Positions 31,557 through 45,258 of a DNA stretch of 64,000 nucleotides are shown in pieces; position 1 is the first letter of the stretch, and every line of letters starts with the position of its first letter. The DNA is from Fidelibacterota bacterium (GTDB lineage: Bacteria; Fidelibacterota; Marinisomatia; Marinisomatales; TCS55): the NCBI GenBank assembly GCA_016845785.1, contig JAERSH010000042.1, positions 1-64,000 on the forward strand, given 5' to 3'. Both the position numbers and the translations under genes were made by a program. A model generated the notes under the pieces. It was not told the DNA's origin. It searched no databases and worked only from the letters and a program-made list of their open reading frames with translations.

Positions 31557-31649
31557 GGGAATGATTAGGCGGCTGGTGCCCCTCGCGGTCTTCAACACCG
31601 TTGTCCTGCCGATAAAGCAGGAGTTGGGTTCGATTCCCAAGCGTTCCCG
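31557..31649 (+). tRNA. selC: tRNA-Sec (anticodon UCA), selenocysteine tRNA
   Basis: A 93-base tRNA with an extra-long variable arm. The acceptor arm pairs GGGAATG with the 3' strand CGTTCCC plus one A-G mismatch, giving the 8-pair length typical of bacterial tRNA-Sec. The D arm is long (AGG-GGC with GCC-CCT, one bulged C, loop TGGT). The anticodon loop is CTTCAAC with TCA at 31592-31594. The variable arm is TCCTGC/GCAGGA, and the T arm is TTGGG/CCCAA with loop TTCGATT. The discriminator is G and CCA is not encoded. The UCA anticodon with this fold indicates selenocysteine insertion at UGA. No selA, selB, selD or recognisable selenoprotein lies in the window. Confidence 0.93.
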
Positions 31650-31650
31650 C

Positions 31651-39824: not shown

Positions 39825-40886
39825 TTAGTTTCTTTCAATATATTCCGGCATAATACCGAATTCCGATTCCAGTTCATCGGCAATATTTTTAATCATATTC
39901 TTCCTGACTACATGGGGCAGAAAGGCTGCTTTCATAGCGATGATGGTTACTTCCCTAAAATCATGAAGTGTAAAGTTGAATAGATCGCGGGCCACACCAA
40001 ATTCTTTGGACAGGGTGGTATCGGACATGAGTCGATTATCTGTATTCAGTGTAACACGAATGCCTTGATCATAATAATACCTGAATGGATGCTGTTTTAG
40101 CGATCGCACTGAATAAGTATGCCAATTTGATGTGAGGCAGACTTCCATGGTAATCCGATGGTCCGTTACATATTGCATCAAATCTTTATCTTCTTTTAAA
40201 CGTGTCCCATGGCCAATACGGTGGGCACCGCAATAGTGGATCGCTTGATGAATTGAAGATGGACCAAATGCTTCTCCTGCATGGATGGTGGCATTAATGT
40301 TATGATTCAAAATCATATAAAAGGCTTCTCGGTGATCTTTCGCCGGGAAGTTTTCTTCCGCACCGGCCAAGTCAAAACCCACGACACCTTTGTTTTTATA
40401 TCGAACGCATAGGTCTGCCAATTTTAGGGAAGCTTCAGGAGAAATATGGCGAATACCGCAAACGATAATACCGGACTTTACACCAAAATCCTTCTCTCCC
40501 TGTTTGAGTCCCTCACGAACGGATTCAACCGCTTCTTCCAAGGTCATTCCTTTATTTGTATGAAGGATGGGTGAGTATCGTACCTCAATGTAGCGAACAT
40601 TTTCAGCTGCCACATCTTCGATCAATTCATAGGCGATTCGGGTGAGGGCGTCGGGCGTTTGCATCACACTGAGTGTAATGTCAAAACGGGCAATATATTC
40701 TTCTAATGTTCCCCGTTTTTTCCCAATGGAAAGGATCTTTTTTAGATTGATAGGATTGGATGCAGGCAGCGACACTTGGTGCCGCTGCGCCAAATCCAGA
40801 ATCGTTTGGATTCGCAGACAGCCGTCCAGGTGGCAGTGAAGCTCAACCTTGGGAAGTTTTTTCAGCAGGCTGTCTGAAATCTTCAT
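39825..40886 (-). CDS. add: Adenosine deaminase
   Basis: The enzyme deaminates adenosine or deoxyadenosine to inosine, using zinc. The 353-residue TIM-barrel protein has the metal pair HCHLDGCLR near the N-terminus, VVGFDLAGAEENFP, HAGEAFGPSSI with the third histidine and catalytic glutamate, HRIGHGTRL and the zinc aspartate in LNTDNRLMSDT. The NTDN form instead of NTDD is common in one bacterial branch and not a defect. It lies 11 bases upstream of the PLP enzyme and 4 bases after the transporter, so all three form one operon. Confidence 0.92.
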   Translation of the reverse strand: MKISDSLLKKLPKVELHCHLDGCLRIQTILDLAQRHQVSLPASNPINLKKILSIGKKRGTLEEYIARFDITLSVMQTPDALTRIAYELIEDVAAENVRYIEVRYSPILHTNKGMTLEEAVESVREGLKQGEKDFGVKSGIIVCGIRHISPEASLKLADLCVRYKNKGVVGFDLAGAEENFPAKDHREAFYMILNHNINATIHAGEAFGPSSIHQAIHYCGAHRIGHGTRLKEDKDLMQYVTDHRITMEVCLTSNWHTYSVRSLKQHPFRYYYDQGIRVTLNTDNRLMSDTTLSKEFGVARDLFNFTLHDFREVTIIAMKAAFLPHVVRKNMIKNIADELESEFGIMPEYIERN

Positions 40887-40890
40887 CCGG

Positions 40891-42756
40891 TTATTTTCTC
40901 GATACGGATTTATATAACCAGTACATCATACCCATAAACAGAATTGGTCCAACCCAATTCATACCGCCAAAATGAGGCCACCAGTCTTTTTGTCCTGTTA
41001 GGAATATCGGCACAGCAACCATGATGCCCATGAGAGCCTCTCCCGTGATAAAACCGGATGACATGAGTAATCCACGTTTTTCAGATGATTCAGATCCGCC
41101 GGCTTTTTTGCCCAAGTGATTAATCATTCCCCCAATGAAAATGGGTACGGTTAATGTAATGGGTAGGTATATCCCAACGGCTACGGCCAACACGGGTACT
41201 CTGAAATCAGCGCCAAGTTTTTCCTGCCTCAAATCAATAAGGATAAGTGCGACGGCAATAGCACCACCAATGTAAACAAATGTCCATGGCAGATTGCCCG
41301 TGAATACACCATCTGCAACTGATTTCATCAATGTGGCTTGTGGGGCAGACAAAGTTGGTGATCCGATGGTATATGCAGTGTGTAAAATATCCAATACGAG
41401 TCCGAGGACTACGGCTGCAGATACGGTCCCGACAATTTGCATGACTTGCTGTTTCCAGGGGGTGGCACCGACAATATGGCCCGCTTTCAGATCTTGGAGG
41501 TTATCACCACCAATGGCAGCAGCACAGCAGACAACCGCACCCACCATAATAGCACTGGCAGCACCTACACCAGACCCTGTTCCTAAAATGGCCAACAAGA
41601 GTAGGGAAGCAAAAAGGATAGTTGCAATGGTTACGCCAGAAATGGGGTTGTTTGATGATCCCACCACCCCGGCCATATAGGCAGCAACGGCGGAGAACAA
41701 AAATCCAAACACCATCATGACTACCGCAAGGAGGGCTGCAATACCCACAGACCCAATAATATCCAAATAAAGAAGGAATACGGGTACAAGGAGTGCAATT
41801 AAAGCAATTCCAACATAATTGATAGGCATATCCTGTTCTTCTAAAGGCACATCTTTATCGGAAGATTGATGTTTTACTGCAGCTAAACTGGCTTTTACGC
41901 CTTCTATTAATGGCTTAAATAATTTGATCAAAGACCAAACACCACCAACCACCATGGCACCGACTCCGAGATAACGGATTTTTGAATTCCAGATGCCCCA
42001 TGCCGCATCCAGAGGATCGCCTTCAAATCCAACCATTGCAGAATAAATCGGGATTGCAATGGCCCATGAAATCAATCCACCGCCTACAACGAGAATGCCG
42101 ATATTTCGGCCTACAATGTATCCTACAGAAATCAAGGCGGGAGAGAGGTCAGTACCCAATCCGAATATGGATCGGCCCACGGTTGTAGCACCGGCCATTT
42201 CTGCATGCCATGCGCCAAATCCTTGTTGAAATAATTTCATGACACCACCTGCGAGACCGGTTAATCCAATGGTTTTTAATCCTCCGGATCCATCATCGGC
42301 AGCACCTTTTCGCGCTTCATCACCAGCGCGCAAAACTTCGGCCGTTGCCACACCTTCCGGATATTTCAATTTAGCAGTAACAATTAATGCGCGTCGTAAC
42401 GGCACTGTAAAAAGGACACCAATGACACCACCAATGGCAGCAATTTTTGCCACTTCCACATAATCAAATGTGTCCCAATAGCCCAATAGGACCAATGCAG
42501 GAATAGTGAATATGACACCAGCAGCTAATGATTCACCTGCTGATGCAGCTGTTTGCACAATGTTGTTTTCTAAAATATTTGATTTTTTGAATAAGGAGAG
42601 TACCCCCATGGAAATCACTGCAGCAGGGATGGATGCAGATACGGTCATCCCGGCGAATAAGCCAAGATAAGCATTGGCTCCGGCAAGGACCATGGATAAG
42701 ACTACACCGAGAAAAAGGGCTTTTACGGTAATTTCCGGTAATTGGTTATTTGACAT
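40891..42756 (-). CDS. OPT family oligopeptide transporter
   Basis: The 621-residue polytopic membrane protein has about 14-16 hydrophobic segments. OPT features include LGVVLSMVLAGANAYLGLFAGMTVSASIPAA near the N-terminus, NIVQTAASAGESLAAGV, RRALIVTAKLKYPEGVATAEVL, GGDNLQDLKAGHIVGATPWKQ and VGIYLPITLTVPIFIGG. Family members import small peptides or metal chelates by proton symport. It is the first gene of the peptide/nucleoside operon and is divergent from the riboswitch-controlled TonB receptor. Confidence 0.92.
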   Translation of the reverse strand: MSNNQLPEITVKALFLGVVLSMVLAGANAYLGLFAGMTVSASIPAAVISMGVLSLFKKSNILENNIVQTAASAGESLAAGVIFTIPALVLLGYWDTFDYVEVAKIAAIGGVIGVLFTVPLRRALIVTAKLKYPEGVATAEVLRAGDEARKGAADDGSGGLKTIGLTGLAGGVMKLFQQGFGAWHAEMAGATTVGRSIFGLGTDLSPALISVGYIVGRNIGILVVGGGLISWAIAIPIYSAMVGFEGDPLDAAWGIWNSKIRYLGVGAMVVGGVWSLIKLFKPLIEGVKASLAAVKHQSSDKDVPLEEQDMPINYVGIALIALLVPVFLLYLDIIGSVGIAALLAVVMMVFGFLFSAVAAYMAGVVGSSNNPISGVTIATILFASLLLLAILGTGSGVGAASAIMVGAVVCCAAAIGGDNLQDLKAGHIVGATPWKQQVMQIVGTVSAAVVLGLVLDILHTAYTIGSPTLSAPQATLMKSVADGVFTGNLPWTFVYIGGAIAVALILIDLRQEKLGADFRVPVLAVAVGIYLPITLTVPIFIGGMINHLGKKAGGSESSEKRGLLMSSGFITGEALMGIMVAVPIFLTGQKDWWPHFGGMNWVGPILFMGMMYWLYKSVSRK

Positions 42757-42862: not shown

Positions 42863-42871
42863 CGCACCGCA

Positions 42872-42953
42872 TTTGGGGTGCTGTTTTGAACCAGATCGAA
42901 ATGGCTGAGAATAGACCCAAGAACCTGATCTGGATAATGCCAGCGTAGGAAAA
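42872..42953 (+). promoter_or_regulatory. TPP riboswitch (THI element)
   Basis: The conserved parts of the thiamine pyrophosphate aptamer occur in order: GGGGTGCT (42875-42882), GGCTGAGA (42903-42910), GACCC (42914-42918), ACCTGATCTGGATAATGCCA (42923-42942) and GCGTAGGAAAA (42943-42953). CTGG and CCAG around ATAATG form the P5 hairpin. The aptamer ends only eight bases before the ATG of the TonB receptor, and AGGA at 42947-42950 lies in its 3' strand. Ligand binding probably hides the ribosome-binding site, giving repression when thiamine is plentiful. The motif is clear; the mode of control is inferred. Confidence 0.92.
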
Positions 42954-42960
42954 CCTAAAC

Positions 42961-45258
42961 ATGAAAAAAATACGCTTTTTAAGTTTATTGCTGTTTTCCA
43001 CTATTCATGCCCAAACTATTGAAGTTACAGGGTTAGTTGTGGATGGTGAATCGCACACACCTTTAGTGGGTGTCAACATTATGTCGGGAGAAACAGGAAC
43101 CGTTTCTGATCTCTCAGGTACGTTTCAACTTAACGTAGATGAAGGTGCAGAAATCACCTTCTCCTTTATTGGATATACATCCATCACCACGTTAGCCAAA
43201 CCCAGCATGACGATCTTGATGCATCCAACCGTGCTTCAAGGGGATGAAGTGCATGTCAGTGCCACCCGTGCTGTTGCCGGAATTACACCGGTTTCATTCT
43301 CGAATTTGACTGCAGCAGAGATTGAAACCAGAAATACAGCACAAGATGTGCCGATGATTCTAGGATCAGAGCCGGGGGTTTGGGCATACAGTGAGAGTGG
43401 AAATGGCACAGGATATTCATATGTATCTATTCGAGGATTTGACCAAAGCCGCATCGGTGTCATGATTGATGGTGTGCCCCTCAATGATAACGAAAGTCAT
43501 CAGGTCTATTGGGTGGATCATGGTGATTTATTAGCAGATGCACGAGATGTACAAATCCAACGGGGAATTGGAAACAGTTTATACGGTTCCTCTGCTTTTG
43601 GGGGATCCATTAATGTGAATACACAAATTGTCAGCGACAAAAGAGAAATTGGTTTATCCTATGGATCGGGAGATTGGAATACAAATAAAACCCGTGTCCG
43701 ATATCGATCCGGGAATGATCTTGGAAAAGATTTGAGCTTGACCGTTCGGGCTTCTCAAATCAATTCAGATGGATACCGTGAAAACCATAATTCTAAACAA
43801 AATGGTATGTTCTTTGGATTGGAACATCGCGGCAAACGATTCACCAACCAATTCCGGGCACTCATCGGTTATGAAAATACCCAGTTGCTTTGGGATGGTA
43901 TTTATATGACGGATATTGATGATCGTACTAAACGTCGCGCAGGGTATAAAGCATATACAGATGACTTTCTGCAACAGATCTATTCCGTCAATACGAAAGG
44001 TCGGATTCGAGATGATCTTTACTTCCGAAATGTGAGTTACCTCGTGTTGGGTAAGGGGTATTATGAGGTCGCCAAATCCGGTCGAGATTTTTATGCCTAT
44101 AACTTGGATATCAATAATGAATATACGGATGCCCAAGAACAAAATATGTCCACCGATCTTCTTAGGAGAAAATGGATCGATAATAATTATTTTGGCGTAG
44201 TCCCGACCTTGACGTGGAACAATAAAGAAATTCGCGCAGATATTGGTGGTGAAATTCGATTTTACACTGGAGATCATTACGGTGAGGTATCTCAATTTTC
44301 TAATGCCGGTTTAGCAGCCCATTTCGGCGATAAATGGCATCGGTATTATCGATATGTAGGGAAAAAGAACTCCATCACTGCATTTGCCCATTTTGTATGG
44401 AGCCCTGAAGGACAGCCTTTTACACTCATGGCCGATTTCCAAAATCAGAATCACAATTGGACATTGGATCAAGAATCCATTGGTCATGCGGCTGGGCATC
44501 AGCTTTCTGCCGATTGGAATTTTTTCAATCCACGGATGGGGATGATTTGGGAATTTAGTGATTCAATGCATGTATTTGTGAATTGGGGCAAAGCCCAAAA
44601 AGAACCGGCCGACAATCAGATTATTGATGCGGATGATGTATGGAGTAAACCGGTCATGGCTGCGGCAGAGGTCATTTCAGATTTAGAGTGGGGAATCGAT
44701 TTTACCTTCGGAAAAGGTCGCGCCCGATTTAACGGATATCACATCAAATACCTGAATGAACAATTGAAAAATATTGATGTAGAGCAAGAAGGTGAGTACG
44801 ATTACTATTCAGCGGACTCCACCGATCACATGGGCTTCGAATGGGAAGCGGGATTTACATTCAATAAAAAATGGAGCACTTCTGCCAATGGCGCATTGGT
44901 CATGAATTATTTTTCTGATGGAAAAAGTTTACCCAATATTCCATCCACATTATTCAATATGTCAGTGAATTATCGTCCCATGAAAAATACATTATTATTC
45001 CTCCATTGGCGGCGTGTAGGACATATGTATGTAGATAAGGCCAACACTGATCCTGCAGGTTTGATCGATCCATATGGGTTATGGAATGTTGGTGCCCAAT
45101 ACCGATGGAAGGGATTGGAAGTCATGGTCAAAGTGAACAATATTTTTGATAAGCTTTATGAAACCTATGGGTATGGTTATGAATGGGATGGATACCATGC
45201 CTATTTCTGGCCCGGCGCACCCAGAAACTCCTTCATCAATATTTCATATACATTCTAA
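42961..45258 (+). CDS. TonB-dependent receptor, probably for thiamine or a precursor
   Basis: The 765-residue outer-membrane receptor has a signal peptide (KKIRFLSLLLFSTIHAQ), a carboxypeptidase-D-like domain (about 20-95, VTGLVVDGESHTPLVGVNI), a plug domain (about 120-230, with SYVSIRGFDQSRIGVMIDGV and QIQRGIGNSLYGSSAFGGSI), and a 22-strand-type barrel ending in FINISYTF. The preceding TPP riboswitch indicates thiamine-repressed expression. Import of thiamine, its phosphates or pyrimidine/thiazole precursors is inferred from that control alone. An inner-membrane thiamine transporter is not adjacent. Confidence 0.9.
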   Translation: MKKIRFLSLLLFSTIHAQTIEVTGLVVDGESHTPLVGVNIMSGETGTVSDLSGTFQLNVDEGAEITFSFIGYTSITTLAKPSMTILMHPTVLQGDEVHVSATRAVAGITPVSFSNLTAAEIETRNTAQDVPMILGSEPGVWAYSESGNGTGYSYVSIRGFDQSRIGVMIDGVPLNDNESHQVYWVDHGDLLADARDVQIQRGIGNSLYGSSAFGGSINVNTQIVSDKREIGLSYGSGDWNTNKTRVRYRSGNDLGKDLSLTVRASQINSDGYRENHNSKQNGMFFGLEHRGKRFTNQFRALIGYENTQLLWDGIYMTDIDDRTKRRAGYKAYTDDFLQQIYSVNTKGRIRDDLYFRNVSYLVLGKGYYEVAKSGRDFYAYNLDINNEYTDAQEQNMSTDLLRRKWIDNNYFGVVPTLTWNNKEIRADIGGEIRFYTGDHYGEVSQFSNAGLAAHFGDKWHRYYRYVGKKNSITAFAHFVWSPEGQPFTLMADFQNQNHNWTLDQESIGHAAGHQLSADWNFFNPRMGMIWEFSDSMHVFVNWGKAQKEPADNQIIDADDVWSKPVMAAAEVISDLEWGIDFTFGKGRARFNGYHIKYLNEQLKNIDVEQEGEYDYYSADSTDHMGFEWEAGFTFNKKWSTSANGALVMNYFSDGKSLPNIPSTLFNMSVNYRPMKNTLLFLHWRRVGHMYVDKANTDPAGLIDPYGLWNVGAQYRWKGLEVMVKVNNIFDKLYETYGYGYEWDGYHAYFWPGAPRNSFINISYTF

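Follow-up and report, generated by a model that had tools for sequence, protein, structure and literature searches.

The DNA analysed here is a 64,000-nt window (contig JAERSH010000042.1 of assembly GCA_016845785.1, positions 1 to 64,000, forward strand). A cmscan search revealed a match to the TPP riboswitch family RF00059 at 42864-42968 (+), with a score of 59.1 bits (E 4.9e-9 for the 64-kb window) compared to a gathering score of 54.3 bits. The alignment spans model positions 1-105, and all conserved blocks of the aptamer (GGGGUGC, GCUGAGA, ACCC and ACCUGAUCUGGAUAAUGCCAGCGUAGG) were found both in the sequence and in the cmscan alignment. By curated threshold and complete core, the element is a TPP riboswitch, as claimed by an earlier, sequence-only reading of this locus that had proposed the covariance-model search as a check. 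The last 12 RF00059 columns form a tail that overlaps the start codon of the following gene. A permissive scan of the whole window returned two Rfam matches in all, this aptamer and a selenocysteine tRNA, and no other TPP riboswitch was found in the genome (2.16 Mb, 93% complete). A GCACC/GGUGC hairpin at 42864-42881 occurs in this genome's copy and is absent from its relatives, and it was set aside.

The 3' strands of P4 and P1 occupy positions 42945-42956 (+), adjoining the start codon, and contain an AGGA sequence (42947-42950) that resembles a Shine-Dalgarno (SD) sequence and may be sequestered by the folded aptamer. The model places the end of P1 at 42956, 4 nt short of the receptor gene's ATG at 42961. 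The spacing of eight bases given by the sequence-only reading holds if the aptamer is considered to end at its conserved core (42952), not at the P1 end placed by the model. P1 is weak in this genus, with three of five model pairs in the alignment, which makes the firmness of site closure uncertain.

The open reading frame downstream of the aptamer (42961-45258, +) encodes a protein of 765 residues with an N-terminal CarboxypepD_reg-like domain and a Plug domain (PF07715, 2e-17, Pfam). An AlphaFold2 model built from 21 relatives (mean pLDDT 82.7, pTM 0.77) resembles solved TonB-dependent transporters over its length, the best Foldseek match being PqqU (E 3.7e-39). The Plug and fold matches together point to a Plug within a 22-stranded barrel, the architecture predicted for a TonB-dependent outer-membrane receptor, and agree with what had been read from the open reading frame. 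Generic TonB models scored the protein below their own cut-offs, and as a single protein it had no match to PDB sequences at 1e-8, whereas profile and fold searches did match. PqqU (PDB 9c4o) is the closest solved fold and also a transporter of a small cofactor, but it shares only 16% identity with the window receptor and has another substrate; to our knowledge, no TPP riboswitch is associated with it. Relatives of the receptor are up to 91% identical and nearly all belong to Candidatus Neomarinimicrobiota (Marinimicrobia, SAR406), in keeping with the marine bacterium of the FCB group that had been proposed as the source of this DNA.

We read 148 TPP riboswitches in the phylum; a TonB receptor gene follows 139 of these, immediately so in 135 cases. 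Since orthologous receptor genes of other Marinimicrobia have the riboswitch in the same position, the pairing exceeds what chance would produce. In 133 of 137 relatives, the start codon is found between -4 and +7 nt from where P1 ends, and an SD-like sequence, usually GUAGGGAG of the aptamer itself, stands ahead of the start in 133 of 137. No intrinsic terminator was seen between the aptamer and the ATG in the window, where 4 nt leave no room for one. The position of the start codon at P1 across the phylum points to direct translational control, and the simplest reading of these sequences is an aptamer that, once closed, masks the ribosome-binding site by itself. High intracellular TPP would close the aptamer, rendering the 3' strands of P4 and P1, which contain AGGA and abut the AUG, inaccessible and leaving the receptor untranslated; at low TPP, these strands would open and the receptor would be made. 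TPP binding by this aptamer and the direction of control are predicted from the family.

Control at the level of transcription, Rho- or terminator-dependent, with the same sensor and the same substrate, seems unlikely to us. TPP riboswitches can work at either level (PMC5613172), but the distance between P1 and the ATG is too short for an intrinsic terminator and this spacing is kept across the phylum; a Rho-dependent mechanism may still apply. The OMthi transcript of Bacteroides thetaiotaomicron changes little with thiamine (PMC5613172), which fits translational control; the working of the TPP riboswitches of Bacteroidetes has been called uncertain (PMC5613172).

ThiC was absent from the window's genome and from 40 relatives (41 genomes searched), while a control search detected it in 13 of 14 reference genomes. 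ThiE scored below cut-off in the window's genome and exceeded it in only 1 of the 41 genomes, and ThiN was absent from the window's genome. A ThiG match of 22.6 bits over 50 positions of a 308-aa frame was rejected as a likely TIM-barrel cross-hit because the same model also matched in all 14 control genomes. Given the completeness of the assembly, an absent gene could be missing from it; ThiC, however, is missing from all relatives. Thiamin pyrophosphokinase (TPK) was found in the window's genome, as in 35 of the 41 genomes. Its gene (G000:C28, 397-1026) is followed 3 nt behind by a gene for a sodium:solute symporter (SSF, 1030-2403); this pair is located on another contig than the receptor gene and has no riboswitch of its own, and in most relatives the two genes are near neighbours. 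PnuT was rejected as the inner-membrane partner: the NMN_transporter model mostly matches over its C-terminal 60-80 positions, in frames of about 80 aa and in 8 of 41 genomes, and such partial matches do not represent a full PnuT. Judging from these searches, the organism seems unable to make vitamin B1, and its predicted gene set is that of a bacterium that imports thiamine and then pyrophosphorylates it.

A few Marinimicrobia carry extra TPP riboswitches upstream of THI4-, ThiD- or ThiE-like genes (L073 in G215, L085 in G023 and L110 in G007), suggesting that thiamine synthesis is kept in some lineages. Almost every other relative has one or two TPP riboswitch matches, but the whole genome of G062 yielded 12, three of which were read.

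A single operon in family f25 (L234 in G194) combines the riboswitch, a group A receptor like that of the window (see below), TPK and the SSF symporter, the ends of its genes overlapping. Furthermore, a symporter-like gene lies directly behind the riboswitch-controlled receptor in families f16 and f19. Pieces that are apart in the window's genome are thus assembled into one operon elsewhere. The locus displays two of the features by which omr1/OMthi systems are recognized: its TonB receptor gene is under a TPP riboswitch and, through the f25 operon, it is linked in the genome with TPK and a transporter of the inner membrane. The sequence-only reading had suggested vitamin B1 scavenging across the outer membrane, for which the lack of ThiC, ThiE and ThiN matches, the presence of TPK and the TPK-SSF pair argue. 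It had also left the choice between thiamine, a thiamine phosphate and a pyrimidine or thiazole precursor. In the absence of a TMP synthase a precursor could not become thiamine; hence the likely substrate is thiamine, or thiamine phosphate dephosphorylated on its way in. The receptor, energized by TonB, would bring thiamine into the periplasm, the SSF symporter would presumably carry it into the cytoplasm, and TPK would convert it to TPP, thereby closing the loop. Altogether, we hold it as highly probable that TPP represses this gene and that its product is a receptor for thiamine uptake, the TPP binding, translational OFF control, substrate and role of the symporter being predicted.

Import of a precursor (the pyrimidine HMP or the thiazole) instead of thiamine would agree with the assignment of the SSF transporter ThiV of SAR11 to pyrimidine uptake (PMC10881298) and with an NMT1/THI5-like gene found behind the riboswitch in G104. 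We nevertheless judge it quite improbable, because no ThiE or ThiN match would be available to join the two halves, TPK is present, and TPK resides inside the receptor operon in family f25. Finally, a decayed, non-functional aptamer in front of a receptor for a siderophore, cobalamin or another substrate, to which the only moderate excess of 59.1 bits over the gathering score, the weak P1 and the low scores of the generic TonB models would lend themselves, is very improbable given that the core is complete, that its position is kept in many genera while P3 stem sequences differ, and that the operon links the receptor to TPK and SSF.

Genes for an OPT-family transporter and an adenosine deaminase-like protein (window 39825-42756, -) adjoin the slot of the riboswitch and receptor. 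The OPT transporter was rejected as a target of the riboswitch because its gene is on the other strand and points away. Several families, and other classes of the phylum too, have both genes next to the slot (L049, 8802-11734; L059, 1557-4746), with a different order in L049, where receptor, SSF, OPT and deaminase genes are all on one strand. That they take part in thiamine use is only a guess.

The arrangement of riboswitch and receptor is of an already known type. In Bacteroidetes, a TPP riboswitch precedes the TonB-dependent receptor gene omr1/OMthi (Rodionov 2002; PMC5613172), and B. thetaiotaomicron requires about ten times as much thiamine once both OMthi and the biosynthetic operon are lost (PMC5613172). 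OMthi (BT2390) shares with the Marinimicrobia receptors the riboswitch and the link to an inner-membrane transporter and TPK, but its transporter is PnuT instead of an SSF symporter and Bacteroides also makes thiamine. The genetic evidence for thiamine uptake comes from Bacteroides, whereas the likeness of the Marinimicrobia receptors rests on arrangement and genome context. Caldithrix abyssi, a thiamine auxotroph, carries a TPP riboswitch, a TonB receptor, SSF and TPK (Cabys_3975-3977, PMC5317091), and sequence kinship of its receptor with BT2390 has been reported (PMC5317091). Its genes lie together and its riboswitch is reported to be 163 nt upstream; in contrast, the window's genome has TPK and SSF on another contig and a start codon that touches the aptamer. 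ThiV of SAR11 and others is likewise an SSF transporter linked to TPP riboswitches (PMC2211319, PMC10881298), but its assigned role is pyrimidine uptake and its hosts retain thiE, whereas the Marinimicrobia SSF adjoins TPK in genomes devoid of a ThiE match. In the literature searched, we found no earlier report of the arrangement in Marinimicrobia and no experiments on any Marinimicrobia copy. Two aspects look new, an exchange of unrelated receptor groups behind a resident riboswitch and a P3 loop motif of the window's order.

A tree of the riboswitch-preceded receptors, an analysis that the sequence-only reading had called for, resolved two groups, A (56 full-length rows, including the window receptor) and B (40), separated by a very long branch with full support. 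Both occur within genus g83, where the A receptor of G234 is 45% identical to the window receptor over its length and shares only 25% identity, over parts only, with the B receptor of G233. The slot is constant in this genus (thioredoxin, riboswitch, A or B, WecB-like gene), as it is in family f1 (adenosine deaminase and OPT in divergent orientation, riboswitch, A or B, DNA polymerase I). In the tree of the WecB-like neighbour, B-bearing genomes lie on one side of a single branch, consistent with one change (support 99/97). Nucleotide similarity between A- and B-bearing relatives reaches to about the end of the aptamer, then stops. The OPT tree of family f1 displayed four A/B changes; no exchange events were counted from it because the OPT row of G072 looks paralogous and long branches meet.

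Over 244 genomes, A was found in 103, B in 84 and both in 2, a deficit of co-occurrence with a hypergeometric probability of 1.7e-23 that ignores the shared descent of the genomes. The plain reading of these data is that A and B serve one and the same function and would replace each other while the riboswitch stays. G103 and G104 are 93% identical on both sides of the slot, but an additional segment of about 3.4 kb follows the riboswitch immediately in G104; this segment contains a B receptor and the NMT1/THI5-like gene and is followed by an A receptor without a riboswitch. It may have been gained in G104 or lost in G103. The NMT1/THI5-like gene (L013, 3965-4876, and at the same place in L254) lies between the B and A receptors and encodes a product without an obvious signal peptide; G104 is a genome without a ThiE match.

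The P3 loop of the window aptamer carries the motif ACCAGAUC (42890-42897, +), which is complementary to positions 42927-42933 at the end of the P4/P5 5' strand ACCUGAUCUGG (42923-42933, +), a part of the aptamer core by sequence and family alignment and a candidate partner of the loop. CCAGAUC of the loop can pair with GAUCUGG of the strand over 7 nt, with a predicted energy of -11.9 kcal/mol for this duplex compared to -7.9 for the P4/P5 hairpin. The motif is kept in the P3 loops of the order: CCAG or CAGG occurs in 17 of 33 genera (one sequence per genus), whereas shuffled loops gave 1.8 expected and at most 7 in 2000 draws. It was found in none of 75 riboswitches of other lineages, and the stem around it varies in sequence. 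When all 12-nt windows from -80 to +220 were compared, the best complement of the P3 loops was the P4/P5 5' strand (mean run 4.6 compared to a median of 3.1, rising to 5.6 for loops that bear the motif); riboswitches from outside the order lacked this effect. Furthermore, loops paired better with their own targets than with swapped ones (-6.12 vs -5.61 kcal/mol, one sequence per genus, 1.8% of swaps being as good), a difference not seen in three control segments. Loop and target are both changed in G031 (CCAGAG, CUCUGG). CCAG is present in 1 of 12 sequences whose P5 5' strand is not CUGG compared to 28 of 46 (p 0.002, descent ignored), with one clear exception to this association in G143. As the target is part of the TPP-binding core, it is nearly invariant, and covariation is thus thin. 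An ordinary nested fold of loop and strand is unfavoured by RNAfold in most sequences, which leaves only a kissing or strand-exchange form that lies outside what RNAfold models.

We tentatively propose, as an idea that has the odds against it, that the P3 loop in this order pairs with the P4/P5 5' strand during transcription and holds P4/P5 open, keeping the P4 3' strand and ribosome-binding sequence free until TPP closes P4/P5. Such an expression platform would lie upstream, inside the aptamer, allowing the switch to stay put while unrelated receptors are exchanged behind it. The alternative is a P3 loop conserved for a tertiary or protein contact.

Few of the SAR406 bacteria, which abound in the mesopelagic ocean, have been cultured. 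According to our results, many members of this group, and the window's organism with them, would be thiamine auxotrophs importing the intact vitamin through the TPP-regulated TonB receptor, SSF and TPK, which names a vitamin dependency in the dark ocean and a candidate addition to isolation media. Exchange of A and B would provide a natural experiment in which the receptor for a scarce vitamin changes while its regulation is preserved, and the P3 loop complementarity offers a testable idea of how a TPP riboswitch may work without a downstream expression platform. The window also contains a selenocysteine tRNA gene at 31557-31650 (+; RF01852, 66.3 bits; anticodon TCA by ARAGORN), so the organism probably makes selenoproteins.
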